Assembly: GCA_016929525.1 (NCBI GenBank)
Contig: JAFGIP010000003.1
Coordinates: 58,795-122,794, forward strand
DNA from: Bacteroidales bacterium
GTDB lineage: Bacteria; Bacteroidota; Bacteroidia; Bacteroidales; UBA10428
Reading direction: 5' to 3'
DNA length: 64,000 nt
A model generated the notes under the pieces. The model saw nothing but the letters and a program-made list of their open reading frames with translations, searched no databases and was not told where the DNA came from. Every line of letters starts with the position of its first letter. Positions within the stretch are counted from its first letter, which is position 1. A program made the translations under genes and the position numbers. Positions 3,897 through 15,597 of the stretch are shown here, in pieces.

Positions 3897-5960
3897 ATGT
3901 TGGGCAGTTCGGAGGATTATATCAAACTTTTATTAGGCAATGAAGATTGGTTAATGTCACGTGTCTTGATGTATGCAAAGAAGCAGGGTTATGCAAAGTA
4001 TACATCAACGTTACAGGAAGCATGGAGGTTATCGATAAGTGGTCTTACAGAGTCTTTAGTAATGGCAGTGAAAACCTTCGATATAGTCCCGCCAGAATTA
4101 AATCCGGACGCAAGTTATACAGACGACCCGGTTTCAAGATTTGGAGTTATTGAAGCCAAGCGACACCGTGAAAGAGGAGTTACTCTCAGTATGTTTCTGG
4201 GGCTTATGAAATACTATCGTCAGTCATATCTCGATCTTATTAATGCCTCCGGAAATTCGAAACAATTAAAACAAAGATTTAATTTATTTACTGACAGATG
4301 TTTCGACAGAATAGAAATTGGTTATGTGAATGAATGGACTCATACCCCTGAAGAAAAAATATTTCAGGAACTCCAGGACACCAACAGAAAGATTGTTAAT
4401 GAAAAGAATAGATATCTGACAATATTCGAGAGTTTGTTTGCTCCAATAATTCTCTTAGACGATCATAATAAAATTGTTAACTTCAATTTAGCAGCATCCA
4501 GACTATTTACCGATATTAAAATTGCAGGAACTCTTTATTATAATAAAGAACAGGCTTCGGAAGCATTACAAATTGTTGAAGATAAACTGAATGAGCTTGT
4601 AAAATCTAACAATGAATTACTGAAATTCGAAACTTATATTAATACCAATGTAGGTGAAAGATATTTCCAGGTTTTATTAAAAAAAATGTTGGATGTGAGT
4701 GAAAAGTTCAAGGGTACAATAATTATGCTTGATGACCTCACAAATCGTATTGAAACTGAAAAACATCTGCAGATAGCTAAGGTGAAAGCAGAAGAGGCTG
4801 ACAGACTAAAAACAGCATTTCTGGCAAATATGTCTCACGAAATCAGGACTCCGATGAATGCAATAATTGGTTTTACCGAATTATTAATTTCATCCAGTTA
4901 TAACAAGAAAGAACGTAAAGATTATCTGAATCTGATCCGGAAAAGTAGTGCCGATCTTTTAAATATAATTGAAGATATTATTGATGTCGCAAAAATAGAA
5001 TCGAAACAAATAAGAATTAAATATAAGATCTGCAATCCGTTTGATATTCTGCAGGATCTTCAGGCTGTTTATTATGAAACCCTTCGACGATATGGTACAA
5101 ATGATGATGTTGAACTAATAATAAAAGTTAAACAGGAAGAAAGGAATATTACATTATATACCGACTGTGAAAGGTTAAAACAGGTTATGACAAATTTGTT
5201 GAATAACGCAGCCAAATTTACCAGTAAAGGATTTATAGAGTTTGGATACAAAGTTGTTAATCAGGCAAACATATTTTTCTTTGTGAGGGATACAGGAAGA
5301 GGAGTACCTCCTGGCATGAAAGATAAAATATTCGATCGGTTTGTACAAGTGGAAAAACATAATGACACAAATTGTGGCGGGGCAGGTTTGGGACTGGCTA
5401 TATGTAAAAATATCATTAACCTGATGGGAGGTAAAATATGGGTAGAATCGGAAGAAGGAAAGGGTTCGGTGTTCTACTTTCAGTTACCGATCAGAGAAGT
5501 GCCCAATGAAATCAGGAATAAAGTTGGTCAGTTAAAAGAAAGTGAAAATGCAATAATTGATTTGAGTGATAAAGTTTTGCTTGTCGCAGAAGATGATAAT
5601 ATAAATTATATTTATCTGAACGAAATACTTAAAAAAACAGGTGCTAAAATTCTATGGGCCAAAAACGGATTGGAAGCAATCAATCTGGTAGAGTCAGAAG
5701 AACATATAGATCTAATCCTTATGGATATTAAAATGCCTGAGGTGGATGGTTTGGAAGCTTCACGCTATATTTCTGGGATTAAACCCGAAATCCCTATAAT
5801 TGCACAAACAGCATTAGCTGTGGACGGGGATAAATCTAAATGTTTAAGTGCCGGTTGTTCTGCTTATATAACAAAACCTATTGAATCGAAAAATCTGTTT
5901 TTACTTATCCGGAACCAACTTATGAAAAAGAAAAACATTAATAAGGTAATCTATAAATAA
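3897..5960 (+). CDS. hybrid sensor histidine kinase with C-terminal receiver
   Basis: PAS-like region, H-box FLANMSHEIRTPMNAIIGFTELL, N-box NLLNNAAKF, G-box DTGRGVPPG/GGAGLGLAICKNI, receiver with LMDIKMPEVDGLEA and KPI. Confidence 0.93.
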   Translation: MLGSSEDYIKLLLGNEDWLMSRVLMYAKKQGYAKYTSTLQEAWRLSISGLTESLVMAVKTFDIVPPELNPDASYTDDPVSRFGVIEAKRHRERGVTLSMFLGLMKYYRQSYLDLINASGNSKQLKQRFNLFTDRCFDRIEIGYVNEWTHTPEEKIFQELQDTNRKIVNEKNRYLTIFESLFAPIILLDDHNKIVNFNLAASRLFTDIKIAGTLYYNKEQASEALQIVEDKLNELVKSNNELLKFETYINTNVGERYFQVLLKKMLDVSEKFKGTIIMLDDLTNRIETEKHLQIAKVKAEEADRLKTAFLANMSHEIRTPMNAIIGFTELLISSSYNKKERKDYLNLIRKSSADLLNIIEDIIDVAKIESKQIRIKYKICNPFDILQDLQAVYYETLRRYGTNDDVELIIKVKQEERNITLYTDCERLKQVMTNLLNNAAKFTSKGFIEFGYKVVNQANIFFFVRDTGRGVPPGMKDKIFDRFVQVEKHNDTNCGGAGLGLAICKNIINLMGGKIWVESEEGKGSVFYFQLPIREVPNEIRNKVGQLKESENAIIDLSDKVLLVAEDDNINYIYLNEILKKTGAKILWAKNGLEAINLVESEEHIDLILMDIKMPEVDGLEASRYISGIKPEIPIIAQTALAVDGDKSKCLSAGCSAYITKPIESKNLFLLIRNQLMKKKNINKVIYK

Positions 5961-8873: not shown

Positions 8874-9128
8874 TTAAGAAAGCTGGTTCTTCAGGCAATG
8901 AAGCAAAAATGTTCGCAGGTTGTTTTAAATCTTGTAGGGGTAAGGATATTTGATAACATCGCCATTGAGACGTTAAGATTTCTGTGTGGTCTATGCTCAA
9001 ATATGAATATTAAACTGATTATTGTCAATATCGACAGTGAACTGTGTACACAGTTACAGAAAACCGACTTTAGGAATATGTTCGAAATTTCATCACCGGA
9101 AGAAGTAAGCGAACTTACACAGTTGTAG
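8790..9128 (+). CDS. STAS-domain (anti-anti-sigma-like) protein
   Basis: QVVLNLVGVRIFDNIAIETLRFLCGLCSNMNIKLIIVNIDSEL resembles the STAS core; start chosen at MFSVEFYN rather than TTG at 8769. Confidence 0.55.
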   Translation: MFSVEFYNRTYIISSYNIRRINFKYAENLRKLVLQAMKQKCSQVVLNLVGVRIFDNIAIETLRFLCGLCSNMNIKLIIVNIDSELCTQLQKTDFRNMFEISSPEEVSELTQL

Positions 9129-9324
9129 TATTGATCTGGGTTTTAATATTCTAAGATTATAGTTCTCAAAGAAATCCTCTTTCATATCCGTACTTTCCAT
9201 TATCCAATATTTATCGCAGAAATATCCTCCATTAACTATAGTGCATAAGTAATTTACTATTTAAAATTGTCTTTATAGTGTTATATAATTATTTCTGCAT
9301 TCATCAAGAAAACCGTATCAAAGA

Positions 9325-10977
9325 ATGATTCAACCCAGATCATCGAAAATAATTATTGCATCTTTATTCTTGTTTCTGTGTTTCAATGCATTTTCAGCTA
9401 ATGAGTTTATTCTGACCGAAGAAAGTGACTTTCATTATGTATATATCCAGACGAATGAGCCTTATTCAAAACATGATGAACTGATGAGGCAATTCTACCA
9501 GGAATGCATGAAACAAAACCTGGAAAAATATATTACAGGTAAGATGCTAACCATTTATTTTGATGATGATGTACCGTTATGGCGAATAGGCTTTGAAATA
9601 AAAACACAGATCCGGGTTGACAGCCCGCTTACAACAGATGAAATAAACTATAAAAAATGTATACAGAAACAATATACCGGGAACGATATCAAATCGACCA
9701 TACAAATTCTTAAGTTCCGGCTGCAGGAAATGGAACTAATCCAGACAGGACCAACTATAATAAAATGGACAGAAAAATCAAAACTAAGCGAACAATCTGT
9801 TCCTGAGGTTGATATAATAATTCCAACCTCTAGTACCGACTCAACCTCTTTTATAATAGCAAAAACTTCACGTTATATTGTTCTTATATCTATAGTTTTA
9901 TACTTGATGCTGGGTTTTATGGTGCTGATTATAAAAACCAACTGTAAAATCAGAAATCTACTGTTGGCATTTTTTTTATTTTCTTCTGCTCTGGTATTAT
10001 CAGGATGGATCGTTGGCGCATTCCAATATTCCATCTTCTCTGGTTTCCCTTTTTTTTATTATATCGCAAATTTGTTTTGTTTTTTACCCGCTCCGCTTTT
10101 GTTTTTATATACCAGATCACTAATAAAAATGAAATCCAGACTTATAGGTTGGGATCTTCTTCACTTCATACCATTTACCGTTTCTCTTATACTTTGGATA
10201 GATAAATTTTATATACAACCCGCAGAAGTTAAAAGATCATTAATTCTTTCAGAAGAAATCTTTTCAAATTTCTGGGAATTAACAGGATTTATAGTATTAA
10301 ACGGACAAATAATCGGATACATTGGAGCAGCGCTGGTTCTTATTTATACAAGCAGAAAAAAAGTAAAAAACCTTTATGGTATGCAAAACATGCAATATTC
10401 GTGGCTGAACTTTATTTTATGGGGATTTCTCGTAACAAGCTATATCGCTCATCTAAAACACTTGCTGTATAACTATATTGGTGTTTATAGTGAATTACTG
10501 TATATTTTGAGAATTTCAAGCAACCTTGCATTTGTTATAGTACTTTTTTATAAAGGAGTGCTGCATCCATATTTATTTATGCACGGTATTTATCCACTGT
10601 CAAACGGTAGAGATCCATCACTGTCGAGAAGAATGTTTGAGCAATATCGAAACCAGCTTATTGATTATATGAATCATCACAAACCATATTTGATTCCTGA
10701 GATTACATTAGCCGGACTTTCCAATATGACCTCCATACCACAACGTTCCTTGTCAGAAGTGATCAATAAAGGATTTCAACAAAACTTTTTCGAGTTCATA
10801 AACAGCTTTAGAATTGAAGAAGCAAAGAAACTGATTGGCAGTTCGGTTGATAATAACAAAACAATACTTGAAATTCTATATGAGGTTGGTTTCAATAACA
10901 AGTCAGTATTCAATGCTTCTTTTAAAAAACTTACCGGAAAGACACCGACTGAATACAGGTTAGAGGGAGTCAGTTAA
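9325..10977 (+). CDS. membrane-anchored AraC-family transcriptional regulator
   Basis: Signal/TM-rich N-terminus, ~7 hydrophobic segments, C-terminal double HTH (EEAKKLIGSS...TILEILYEVGFNNKSVFNASFKKLTGKTPTEYR). Confidence 0.9.
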   Translation: MIQPRSSKIIIASLFLFLCFNAFSANEFILTEESDFHYVYIQTNEPYSKHDELMRQFYQECMKQNLEKYITGKMLTIYFDDDVPLWRIGFEIKTQIRVDSPLTTDEINYKKCIQKQYTGNDIKSTIQILKFRLQEMELIQTGPTIIKWTEKSKLSEQSVPEVDIIIPTSSTDSTSFIIAKTSRYIVLISIVLYLMLGFMVLIIKTNCKIRNLLLAFFLFSSALVLSGWIVGAFQYSIFSGFPFFYYIANLFCFLPAPLLFLYTRSLIKMKSRLIGWDLLHFIPFTVSLILWIDKFYIQPAEVKRSLILSEEIFSNFWELTGFIVLNGQIIGYIGAALVLIYTSRKKVKNLYGMQNMQYSWLNFILWGFLVTSYIAHLKHLLYNYIGVYSELLYILRISSNLAFVIVLFYKGVLHPYLFMHGIYPLSNGRDPSLSRRMFEQYRNQLIDYMNHHKPYLIPEITLAGLSNMTSIPQRSLSEVINKGFQQNFFEFINSFRIEEAKKLIGSSVDNNKTILEILYEVGFNNKSVFNASFKKLTGKTPTEYRLEGVS

Positions 10978-11043
10978 AAGTTTGTTTGTTTAACACCCTA
11001 AATTTCAGATTTTCCAAATTCACTCCTACGATAAAATGGTCAG

Positions 11044-11125
11044 ATTTTATGCGCTCCTCCTAAAATCAGTCGATCTGAGTATTTCTGTTTTGTAGGTTTG
11101 AACTAAACCAAAACAATAAGGAGGA
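11044..11125 (+). promoter_or_regulatory. candidate cis-acting leader: anti-SD in a hairpin loop complementary to the downstream SD
   Basis: GATTTTA...TAAAATC hairpin with TCCTCCT (11055-11061) in and next to its loop; exact complement of AGGAGGA (11119-11125) just before ATG 11132. Confidence 0.4.
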
Positions 11126-11131
11126 CAGAAA

Positions 11132-12772
11132 ATGAAACTTTCAGTTAAACTTACAAAATTGATCTATGTGTTTTGCCTTTTAATAGTCACTTTTCCTCTT
11201 AAATCTCAGAATAAGGAAAAAGTACAGATTAAGTGGTATGTTCAACTAAGTAATGATGAAGACGATCCATACACACTCTCACTGAATGAGCATGTAGAAA
11301 ACTACAACAATTCGCAGGACTCGATCGAATTAATTATTGATCCTTGTTATGTTGGTTGCTCATTTGATGCTACAGACAGTTTGCTTTTAAAAATACAGGA
11401 AGGAAATCCACCTGATATCACCACGCTGAACTATAGTGAACTCTGGGAACATCTTATGGATATAAAACCTTATCTGTCAGGGTATAATCTGAGTAATGTC
11501 GATTCCACATACTTTTTTAAACATGAATACAATGATTCATTGTTATATCTGTCTTTCAGCATATGCCATAATATGCTGTTTTACAATAAAAGTATGTTTG
11601 ATTCTCTTGACATTCCATATCCCCCGGCTGAATATGGTGAGTTATACAATGGTACAGATGTCTGGGATATGGACAAACTGGAAGAAGTAGCGATGCTGTT
11701 AACCATGGATGCAAACGGCAACAATGCTTATGATGAAGAGTTTAATCCTGATACCATTGTTCAGTACGGATATCACTGGCGTTATTCCAATGGGATGGCT
11801 TTTATTAAACCGTTTGGCCAGCCACAGATTGTTAATGAAGACTGTGAAGTGAGTATTCCCTATCAAACCAGACTGGGTTATTCATGGATCAATGAAGGCA
11901 CGTGGAACAAGCATTTTATTCTGCCCGGAGAGGAAAACGAAAATCTGAATTTTGATCCGCTAGGTTCCGGAAAGGTTGGAATGTTAATTACCGGTTCTTA
12001 TTATGTTGAAGAGCTTGATAGTTTACCTTTTGAATGGGATATTGCAGCTACCCCCGAATACAATGGAAATACCAACATTGCATGGAATACAAGCTCATTT
12101 GGAATTTTAAATACATGTGAACACCCGAAAGAAGCTTTGGAAGTAATCTTTGCAATTACCAATATAATAGAGTTGTATGGAACAACAATACCTACTATGA
12201 AAAACCTTAGAACCGGAGTCAGGGATAGTTTGTTATCAAAGTATCCGGATATTAACTGGCAAGTTTTAGATAATACATCCGATCTTATACAGCCTGATGA
12301 AAGTACCGGCGATGCACTTTATTACAATATGGCCGCCTGGAGGCTGGCCAATGACATGCGCGATTACCTGCAATACGATCCATATGCCGATGTAAACGGA
12401 TCACTTGATTTTTATTTCATACCAAGGTGGGAAATTATATTTGCTGATGCATGTACTTCTAATCCTCCAACAGGAGTTGATGAATTAGCTAATGATCAGT
12501 CCACTGTTGAGCCTGATAATATTTGTAAAGTGTATCCTAATTTATTATGCAGCAATACCACGTTTTTTTTCAATATACCTCATAGGGGAATGGTTAAACT
12601 GATTGTGTATAATTCAAATGGACAAAAAATAGAGACACTGATTGAACAATCCTTTCAGCAGGGTGAATATGAGTTTATATGGACAACGCATAATCTGCCG
12701 GCAGGTATGTATTTAGCCAGGTTTGAGCTGGATGATTACTATGAAATAGAAAAACTAATATGTATAAGATAG
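11132..12772 (+). CDS. family-1-like extracellular solute-binding protein with C-terminal T9SS type A sorting domain
   Basis: Signal peptide; SBP features (GNPPDITTLNYSELWEHLMDIKPYL, MLFYNKSMFDSLDIPYPP, GSGKVGMLITGSYYVEEL, EALEVIFAI); tail VYPNLLCSNTTFFFNIPHRGMVKLIVYNSNGQKIETL...WTTHNLPAGMYLARFELDDYYEIEKLICIR. Confidence 0.85.
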   Translation: MKLSVKLTKLIYVFCLLIVTFPLKSQNKEKVQIKWYVQLSNDEDDPYTLSLNEHVENYNNSQDSIELIIDPCYVGCSFDATDSLLLKIQEGNPPDITTLNYSELWEHLMDIKPYLSGYNLSNVDSTYFFKHEYNDSLLYLSFSICHNMLFYNKSMFDSLDIPYPPAEYGELYNGTDVWDMDKLEEVAMLLTMDANGNNAYDEEFNPDTIVQYGYHWRYSNGMAFIKPFGQPQIVNEDCEVSIPYQTRLGYSWINEGTWNKHFILPGEENENLNFDPLGSGKVGMLITGSYYVEELDSLPFEWDIAATPEYNGNTNIAWNTSSFGILNTCEHPKEALEVIFAITNIIELYGTTIPTMKNLRTGVRDSLLSKYPDINWQVLDNTSDLIQPDESTGDALYYNMAAWRLANDMRDYLQYDPYADVNGSLDFYFIPRWEIIFADACTSNPPTGVDELANDQSTVEPDNICKVYPNLLCSNTTFFFNIPHRGMVKLIVYNSNGQKIETLIEQSFQQGEYEFIWTTHNLPAGMYLARFELDDYYEIEKLICIR

Positions 12773-12838
12773 GTTTTTGATCATTTGCGTTATCTATCAT
12801 TCCACGGGGTGACTACTTAACCTAATAATACAATCAGA

Positions 12839-12867
12839 ACGTAGAGACACCCCATGGTCTCTCCGGA
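12839..12867. repeat. decayed REP-like palindrome (GTAGAGACACCCCATGGTCTCT)
   Basis: AGAGAC...GTCTCT arms around CCCATGG; resembles GTAGAGAC..GTCTCTAC intergenic palindromes found in Bacteroidetes. Confidence 0.4.
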
Positions 12868-13044
12868 TATATCCTGCATTTTATGGGTAAATTACTGTTG
12901 CAATTCTGGTAAAGCCCATCCTGCTATTCTTGGCTATAACAATTCTTCCTGATCAGCTACAGAAAACATATTCCTGAAATTTACTTGAAATTTTATCATG
13001 GATAAAGTCAGAGAACATGTGCAACTTTAGAGATTAGTTGGACA

Positions 13045-15450
13045 TTAGTATTCAAAAACCATAATTTCCGAACCGAAATTCCCCTTCATATCAGTACCTT
13101 CCAAAACTGTTATAAATTTCCCTTCAGCTTTAAGAGGAATTAAAATTGTGATGTTATTATTGTTTATTAATTGTAAATCCGGATTCCAGTATATTGTTAA
13201 AGGATATTTACCTGATTCTTTTCTATCATTGATTCGTTGCTCTGAAGGCATAGAAAAACGTTCTGCTTTATGATAACCAAGCATTGAAAACGCTATTTCT
13301 CCCTTTTTCATAAACTGTCCTCTTTTTGTGTAAATTGCGACCACTCCATTTGCACCTCTGGAACCATATATTGCAGCACTCGGGCCTTTGAGTATTTCAA
13401 TTCTGTCGACATCTTCAACGGGGATGCTGTTTATCACACTAAAGTCAGTAGGCATACCATCGATAAGAAGCAATGGATCTGTGCTGCCATAAATAGTGTT
13501 TCTGCCTCTGATTATCATACTGTTACCTGTGATATCCACACCCGGTACTCTCCCACGCATAGCATCAAGCAGATTACTATAACTGCTGGAAAGTTCATGT
13601 CCCCAAATAACATGATCGGGTGTACCATGGATCGACTCTGAAAATATTGAATCGAGTTCTTTTTGTCTTTTTTTCTGCATTTCTCTTATTTCTTCACCCT
13701 TTCTTCGACGATATTCCGACATGTCCATTGCAGAAGTTGATGTACTGAAAAAATTTCCCTGGTAGTTGACTATTGTTTTATCATTATCCTGACCTATATC
13801 GATAAGCAGGTTTTTGCCTCCCCCGGATTTCCTGGTAACAATTTTCACCTCAACTGTATCGTAATAATTGAGATTTTCAAACTTAAAATACCCCTTTTCT
13901 CCCGAAGATGTTTCGAACTCATCATTGTAGGAACTCTGAATATACAATTTTACGCTTGCTCCCGGATATGGTATATCAAAAAGCTCACGTGTAATTCTTC
14001 CTTCAATTGTAATACCTTTTTCGAAATTATATTCCGGAGCCATCTCCTTGTTTTCAAGGATATCTGACCAGCTGAACCTGCTCCAGCCATGCGTTAACAT
14101 AAGAAGTTCGCTATGTCTTTTAACACTGTCAATACTCTGGTCCAGGTAATAAGAGGGATTTTCGATATATCCGTCCAGATCAGATGAAAGTAACATTTTA
14201 GTTATAATATTTTCAGGGGAAGTAAAAGCCTCTTCAGAGTCGATTAACATTGTTGAAAGAGATGCATAGAATGTATGATCGTTAAGACTCTCATCACTTG
14301 ATTCTAAATTTAATTCTAAAGTATCATTTATTTTTTGTGTAGTAATGGAAAAATGAATTAACCTGTCGTGTAAGATAAAATGTAATCTTTCAGCGACAGG
14401 CAGTAGTCTGTTATTGAAAAGTGTAAAATGAATTATGCCGGAAGGAAATATACTTTCATCAATTGACACATTACTATCTCCATCTAAAAGGTTAACTGAT
14501 GTCTGGTAATACATTTTACCACGCACATGCCCAATGATCAGTATTTCATTGGCAGGTCTGTCATTCGATGGGGGTTTGTTTGATCTTACTTCAAGGAATA
14601 TTTTATTTTTTCTAGTCTGTAGCTTCATACCTATCTTATTCTGAACGGCATTCGGAATTTCATACTTTTCTACTTTTCTGTGGTCATTAAATTTTATATA
14701 AGCAGTGTATGTTTCATTTTTTTGCGGCGTGATATCGAAAGATCCCATACCATCATGTTGTGAATTTATTAAAGCAACTACCTCTTTTTTATTATTTTTC
14801 ACAACACCATGGGCATCTGCCGAACCTCCCAGATTATTTACAGCCTTGAAAGCAACACGTGCACTTAGCCCTTCTAAAAGTTCGCCACCTTCAGGGAAAA
14901 ATTTAATGGTATACTGCAAAGTATTTTTTTTAAGCTTCTTTATATTTTTATTGTTCCATTTAGCTTCTTTTGGAGTAATCTGTAATTTTTTAAATTCATT
15001 TCGAACTTCGATGTTTTTAGTAAAAAAGAATTCAGAACCGAAATTTTTCATCCGGTTCGTATAAGATCTGATTTGGTATATACCCTCTGTAATGGTGTCC
15101 TGAAGAAAGAAGCTCCCTTTCCCGGTTCCGTTTTTCATTTTAATTCTGATTGCCTGTACTGCTATTTTCTTAGGGTTGATCAATTCAACATAGATATGAT
15201 TGCTTTTTTCATCGGCTTCATGTGATTCAGCATTAAATAAATAAGCCTTTATCCAGATATGTTCATTAGCAAAGTAATTGGACTTATCTGTATGTACATA
15301 AATTTTTTGAGGATACATTTCTGATAAATACCTGCTTAAAGCACTTTTAATACGTCCAAGATTTTTCTGGGTACTATCCGTCTGAATAAAAGAAAACATT
15401 ATAAAGGCACATGCAATAACAGATATTATATGTTTAGTTCTTTCTTTCAT
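13045..15450 (-). CDS. MG2-like / TonB-dependent receptor plug-domain protein lacking a beta-barrel
   Basis: IYVHTDKSNYFANEHIWIKAYLFNA (MG2-like), carboxypeptidase-regulatory-like repeat (EGRITRELFDIPYPGASVKLYIQ), plug domain MRGRVPGVDITGNSMIIRGRNTIYGSTDPLLLIDGMP...VEDVDRIEILKGPSAAIYGSRGANGVVAIYTKRG; ends about 90 aa after the plug. Confidence 0.85.
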   Translation of the reverse strand: MKERTKHIISVIACAFIMFSFIQTDSTQKNLGRIKSALSRYLSEMYPQKIYVHTDKSNYFANEHIWIKAYLFNAESHEADEKSNHIYVELINPKKIAVQAIRIKMKNGTGKGSFFLQDTITEGIYQIRSYTNRMKNFGSEFFFTKNIEVRNEFKKLQITPKEAKWNNKNIKKLKKNTLQYTIKFFPEGGELLEGLSARVAFKAVNNLGGSADAHGVVKNNKKEVVALINSQHDGMGSFDITPQKNETYTAYIKFNDHRKVEKYEIPNAVQNKIGMKLQTRKNKIFLEVRSNKPPSNDRPANEILIIGHVRGKMYYQTSVNLLDGDSNVSIDESIFPSGIIHFTLFNNRLLPVAERLHFILHDRLIHFSITTQKINDTLELNLESSDESLNDHTFYASLSTMLIDSEEAFTSPENIITKMLLSSDLDGYIENPSYYLDQSIDSVKRHSELLMLTHGWSRFSWSDILENKEMAPEYNFEKGITIEGRITRELFDIPYPGASVKLYIQSSYNDEFETSSGEKGYFKFENLNYYDTVEVKIVTRKSGGGKNLLIDIGQDNDKTIVNYQGNFFSTSTSAMDMSEYRRRKGEEIREMQKKRQKELDSIFSESIHGTPDHVIWGHELSSSYSNLLDAMRGRVPGVDITGNSMIIRGRNTIYGSTDPLLLIDGMPTDFSVINSIPVEDVDRIEILKGPSAAIYGSRGANGVVAIYTKRGQFMKKGEIAFSMLGYHKAERFSMPSEQRINDRKESGKYPLTIYWNPDLQLINNNNITILIPLKAEGKFITVLEGTDMKGNFGSEIMVFEY

Positions 15451-15597
15451 GCATGGTAAGTTAGAAATTTCATCGATGGAAGTCAATTCTTTCATATTCT
15501 TTTATTAAATTATTAATGCTTCTTAATATGCTCTTTTCTGATAATTTCTAAATTTTTAAATTTACGCCCTGATTTGTGATAACTAATAAATAAATAT

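Follow-up and report, generated by a model that had tools for sequence, protein, structure and literature searches.

An ABC solute-binding protein with a T9SS sorting tail in a Bacteroidales genome, probably a captured importer receptor

The receptors of ABC importers are usually assumed to act together with a permease. The locus described here, found in a window of 64,000 nucleotides (the whole stretch of Bacteroidales DNA that was analysed), raises the question of what such a receptor could do when no permease or ATPase gene adjoins its own gene and when the protein ends in a sorting domain of the type that directs cargo to the T9SS. The gene and its parts are the following:

11132-12772, plus strand: fusion gene of a solute-binding protein (SBP) and a T9SS tail, 546 amino acids (P0001); exact intact ORF, supported by homology and predicted fold
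11120-11125, plus strand: Shine-Dalgarno-like GGAGGA, shortly 5' of the start codon of the fusion gene, read from the sequence
11132-11206, plus strand: putative Sec (SPI-type) signal peptide, residues ~1-25, without lipobox; n, h and c regions read by eye
11216-12451, plus strand: family-1 (CUT1) solute-binding domain, residues ~29-440, from homology and AlphaFold2/Foldseek
12470-12529, plus strand: linker, residues 447-466, with a putative PorU site between T447 and G448
12530-12760, plus strand: type A T9SS C-terminal sorting domain, residues 467-543, TIGR04183 above cut-off

Comparisons with Rfam, PADLOC and PHROG gave no match of note.

The N-terminal part of P0001 had been described in the initial annotation as a family-1-like SBP, a reading that is borne out by several collections of sequences and by structure prediction. 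With P0001 alone as the query, a sequence search of the PDB retrieved the ABC SBP Lmo0181 (5f7v, E 1.2e-4), and eight of the nine plasmid matches were SBPs (from Actinomycetota, Bacillota and Pseudomonadota, best E 3e-8); seven of these carry a sugar ABC SBP annotation, and the eighth lies in a record without annotation. At least six Chloroflexota SBPs align with P0001 near full length (E 6e-40 to 4e-30); these are among the matches listed and were chosen by their similarity to P0001, and other phyla may hold relatives too. Chance resemblance is excluded because of these E-values and the full-length alignment. P0001 matches neither of the Pfam SBP models PF01547 and PF13416, unlike its Chloroflexota relatives, which give strong PF01547/PF13416 matches, and a contig scan with P0001 as the sole query found no relative, while an alignment-based scan succeeded. 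An AlphaFold2 model made from 73 aligned sequences has a mean pLDDT of 74, with values mostly around 90 across residues 31-380 that dip at about 219-250; from about 391 onward the values are low, and the T9SS tail, a region with no aligned relatives, was modelled poorly. When this model was compared with the PDB using Foldseek, family-1 oligosaccharide SBPs came out on top, with some MBP-fusion constructs below them, and the solved CUT1 relatives are Lmo0181 (5f7v), UspC (5k2x), AbnE (6rjy) and CpMnBP1 (4r9g). The two-lobed SBP fold is present in the model, so that the outcome that would have spoken against the annotation, an N-terminal region devoid of this fold, did not occur. The input alignment included SBPs, which makes the fold only partly independent of homology, and a single-sequence prediction was uninformative (pLDDT 32). 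Judged by homology and predicted structure, the N-terminal part of P0001 is a complete family-1 (CUT1) ABC solute-binding fold.

The type A T9SS tail that had been noticed after a short linker was recognised by TIGR04183 with 24.1 bits (cut-off 23) over residues 467-543 of 546, and with 27.9 bits in the genome scan, although PF18962, the second model used to check it, reached 20.3 bits, under the Pfam cut-off of 27. Since the first model is passed and the second is not, the tail is a divergent type A domain, and the other outcome that would have spoken against the annotation, a tail that does not score as a T9SS domain, did not arise either. Its type A motifs are legible: VYPN at 467, VYNSNGQ from 492, LPAGMY at 522 and EKLICI at 540. 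T9SS export of P0001 is plausible because the same genome codes for SprA/Sov (TIGR04189, 2537 bits) and for about 142 T9SS tails (144 matches to TIGR04183, 142 of them above cut-off). In Flavobacterium johnsoniae it is the PorV shuttle that recognises type A tails (PMC12618676). PorU cleavage follows a rule in which T, E, D or N precedes the cut and G, A or S follows it (PMC10202324), to which T447 and G448 in the linker conform.

The lack of a transporter partner, initially observed around the gene, extends to the whole genome. The host genome (4.06 Mb, 97.7% complete) contains five PF00528 permeases, belonging to two Pst-type (phosphate) sets and one Mod-type (molybdate-type) set, as assigned by gene order and by reading of the proteins, and the genome-wide PF00528 search found no sugar-type ABC permease. 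As the genome is a draft, an unassembled sugar permease is possible; within what the assembly shows, ABC sugar import through P0001 is not plausible.

A tree of 47 proteins places P0001 inside a Chloroflexota SBP clade (support 100/100, 25-30% identity), on a long branch (1.78), and in an inner group with the Chloroflexota proteins L113, L109, L108 and L110 (support 99/97); the sampled Bacteroidota SBPs, including those from the window's own order, lie on separate, distant branches. An insertion between YP and W178 is common to P0001, L108, L109 and L110 and absent from L111 and L112, and it is also legible in L113. Two genes for permease-type membrane proteins (read by eye, not by HMM) come after the SBP gene in L108, L109, L111 and L112. 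LacI regulators lie near the SBP gene in L108, L110, L111 and L112, with glycosidase-like genes also near L108 (by reading); the neighbourhood of L110 is less clearly legible for permeases, and the short contig of L113 shows no such cassette. P0001 is thus apparently a captured importer receptor of Chloroflexota type, with Bacteroidota as the probable recipient.

The membrane-anchored AraC-family regulator that had been noted beside the fusion gene was confirmed by its AraC-HTH, N-terminal signal and several TM segments. Both genes lie in one segment with the following features:

9325-10977, plus strand: membrane-anchored AraC-family regulator, 550 amino acids (N-terminal signal/TM, several TM helices, C-terminal HTH_18)
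9129-13044, unstranded: two-gene segment between the STAS and TonB-plug genes, with no counterpart found at the syntenic position of seven relatives
9051-9199, unstranded: left copy of a degenerate direct repeat (STAS 3' end and possible vestigial plug 3' end)
12954-13103, unstranded: right copy of the degenerate direct repeat (possible vestigial STAS end and real plug-gene 3' end)

The surrounding order (HK-HK-RR-STAS, then the site of the two genes, then plug-yebC-leuA-leuC) is traceable by tblastn in eight relatives, and neither the AraC nor the SBP gene was found by tblastn at this locus in the relatives examined. The cleanest cases are G003 and G001, in which STAS adjoins the plug gene and the two genes between are absent. 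STAS is kept and the plug is not seen in G005 and G007, the plug is kept and STAS is not detected in G010 and G012, and in G014 neither is seen, with the flanking response regulator and yebC kept; the stretch examined in G013 covers the plug-yebC-leu side only. The gene at 13045-15495 encodes the TonB plug, and several relatives have a plug gene without an SBP. Because the AraC and SBP genes are jointly absent from the syntenic site, 9129-13044 looks like a two-gene insert within an otherwise housekeeping region. The copies of the direct repeat flanking the pair have a start-to-start spacing of 3903-3904, and their local alignment scores 107, whereas no score above 56 arose in 300 shuffles and none above 79 among slightly fewer than 300 random pairs from the window; this best local alignment begins at the repeat coordinates and extends through poorly matching sequence. 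Such a repeat would agree with a circle having entered by a single crossover, or with a local duplication long ago, but it is suggestive only, and on the right flank the STAS C-terminus is also matched weakly on the inverse strand, which competes with the in-register reading.

How widespread is this arrangement? A survey for SBP and T9SS fusions took in two draws from the order, which overlap (295 and 393 genomes), as well as 396 genomes from the phylum and 23 from the family. Neither another intact copy nor a second genome with the AraC and SBP pair came to light in these sets, which for order and phylum amount to about 800 genomes. The one other trace is a frameshifted remnant in G012 (L028 1-600, G012:C3), in which an SBP C-terminus is followed by the tail; it matches residues 371-438 in one frame and the tail in another, lacks the N-terminal two thirds, and lies close to a contig end beside an unrelated aldo/keto reductase gene, not at the syntenic site. 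Among about 175 SBP ORFs (not deduplicated), only P0001 (as L082) bears a T9SS tail, according to a tail profile that was built from P0001-like tails and therefore favours these, so that distant ones may escape it. Weak matches to the SBP part only, in G004 and G014:C52, were unrelated proteins when read, and the candidate long-frame fusions in G245, G567, G551, G605, G444, G347 and G429 end like permeases and not in a T9SS tail. As a separate observation, in several genomes of the phylum an ABC sugar permease apparently carries an SBP fused in frame to its N-terminus (L077/L190 in G429:C19, L226-L230 and L233). With one intact copy and one decayed remnant known, and the pair absent from the site in relatives, the label of an undescribed system given in the initial annotation is too strong.

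Several explanations for this protein have to be weighed, since its sequence alone would suit the scavenger, the sensor and the adhesin that the initial annotation proposed. P0001 retains 45 of the 81 columns that are invariant in five Chloroflexota SBPs, with the scaffold motifs YNKxxFD, DANG and GxxGM well preserved, and it is changed at other invariant positions, including the GTGT glycine-rich first loop (38-42), W290 and R356, which plausibly lie close to the sugar site. Since these positions are changed, ligand binding is possibly altered or lost, and the lost invariant residues suggest an altered ligand site. A repurposed adhesin or structural surface protein, keeping the SBP scaffold without its ligand binding, would account for these lost glycine, tryptophan and arginine positions and for the long branch of P0001; however, the scaffold motifs are well preserved and the substitutions may equally signal a new ligand, and this explanation is considered unlikely. 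The remnant in G012, truncated and frameshifted, and the sampled relatives, which lack an intact orthologue, could instead indicate a captured gene that is heading for decay without a present function. This is improbable to a greater degree, as the 546-codon frame, the signal peptide, the ribosome-binding site and the tail are all intact in the P0001 gene and its GC (0.368) matches the window mean (0.367), from which it follows that the gene has persisted; the GC gives no sign of a recent arrival either.

SBPs pass ligand information to some chemoreceptors and kinases, and the two genes could likewise form a sensing module, in which the exported SBP would signal its ligand to the AraC regulator by way of the latter's extracytoplasmic domain. 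Both genes are co-directional, 154 bp apart and jointly missing at the site in seven relatives, and the regulator combines some 150 extracytoplasmic residues with an N-terminal signal and several TM helices. On the other hand, a T9SS-exported protein would be outside the outer membrane, remote from an inner-membrane sensor; the extracytoplasmic domain belongs to no recognised family (no Pfam match and no PDB relative were found), and the pair occurs in no second genome of the sample, so that a relay of this kind is doubtful. Even more speculative is the idea of a transferable two-gene unit for importer-less surface nutrient sensing, in which the surface ABC receptor would be the external ligand-capture arm of the membrane-anchored AraC regulator.

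The explanation that is favoured, with a probability of roughly 0.6, is that a Chloroflexota-type importer receptor was captured, was given a T9SS tail and is now a surface carbohydrate-binding protein, probably under AraC control. A carbohydrate ABC-importer receptor of this type would have been taken up by a Bacteroidota lineage, where it would have parted from its permeases and acquired the type A tail. P0001 would then be directed by its Sec signal, cross the outer membrane via SprA and lose the tail, being displayed at the cell surface or released. There it may bind carbohydrate and keep oligosaccharide close to the cell, and would not serve as an ABC-importer receptor; the AraC regulator of the same insert probably controls its expression. 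Ancestry, genome content and export tag argue for this cross-phylum capture and rerouting outside the cell. If this explanation is true, a T9SS tail can make a surface protein of what was a component of an importer, and fusion genes like this one should not carry a sugar-transporter annotation.

Among known systems, P0001 resembles the CUT1 SBPs in its two-lobe fold and full-length homology, its nearest relatives being Chloroflexota receptors, four of them with adjacent permease-like genes, but it differs from them in its T9SS tail, the lack of a lipobox, a genome that yielded no sugar permease and the absence of a Pfam SBP match. SusD and the SGBPs of Bacteroidota have a fold other than that of SBPs, a lipoprotein anchor and a SusC partner. 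The role that P0001 may share with them is glycan binding at the cell surface; it differs in its SBP fold and the lack of a lipobox, and its gene has the AraC regulator gene on one side and the plug-domain gene and yebC on the other, with neither a SusC-SusD pairing nor a lipoprotein anchor at the locus. In Synechococcus MITS9220, MsBP is an orphan sugar-SBP gene outside ABC operons, for which the use of a transporter encoded elsewhere was proposed (PMC8938411). The P0001 gene also lies outside any ABC operon, but in its genome a sugar permease was not found and its product carries a tag for export outside. A review of T9SS cargo (PMC11205867) covers carbohydrate-binding proteins and does not mention ABC, solute or substrate-binding ones, and in the searched literature, which covered few subscription journals, a single paper has both T9SS and an extracellular solute-binding protein, as separate Fibrobacter proteins. 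With the type A cargo recognised by TIGR04183/PF18962, P0001 shares the Sec signal, the C-terminal type A domain and a SprA-bearing genome, and it is set apart by its passenger, an ABC-importer receptor.
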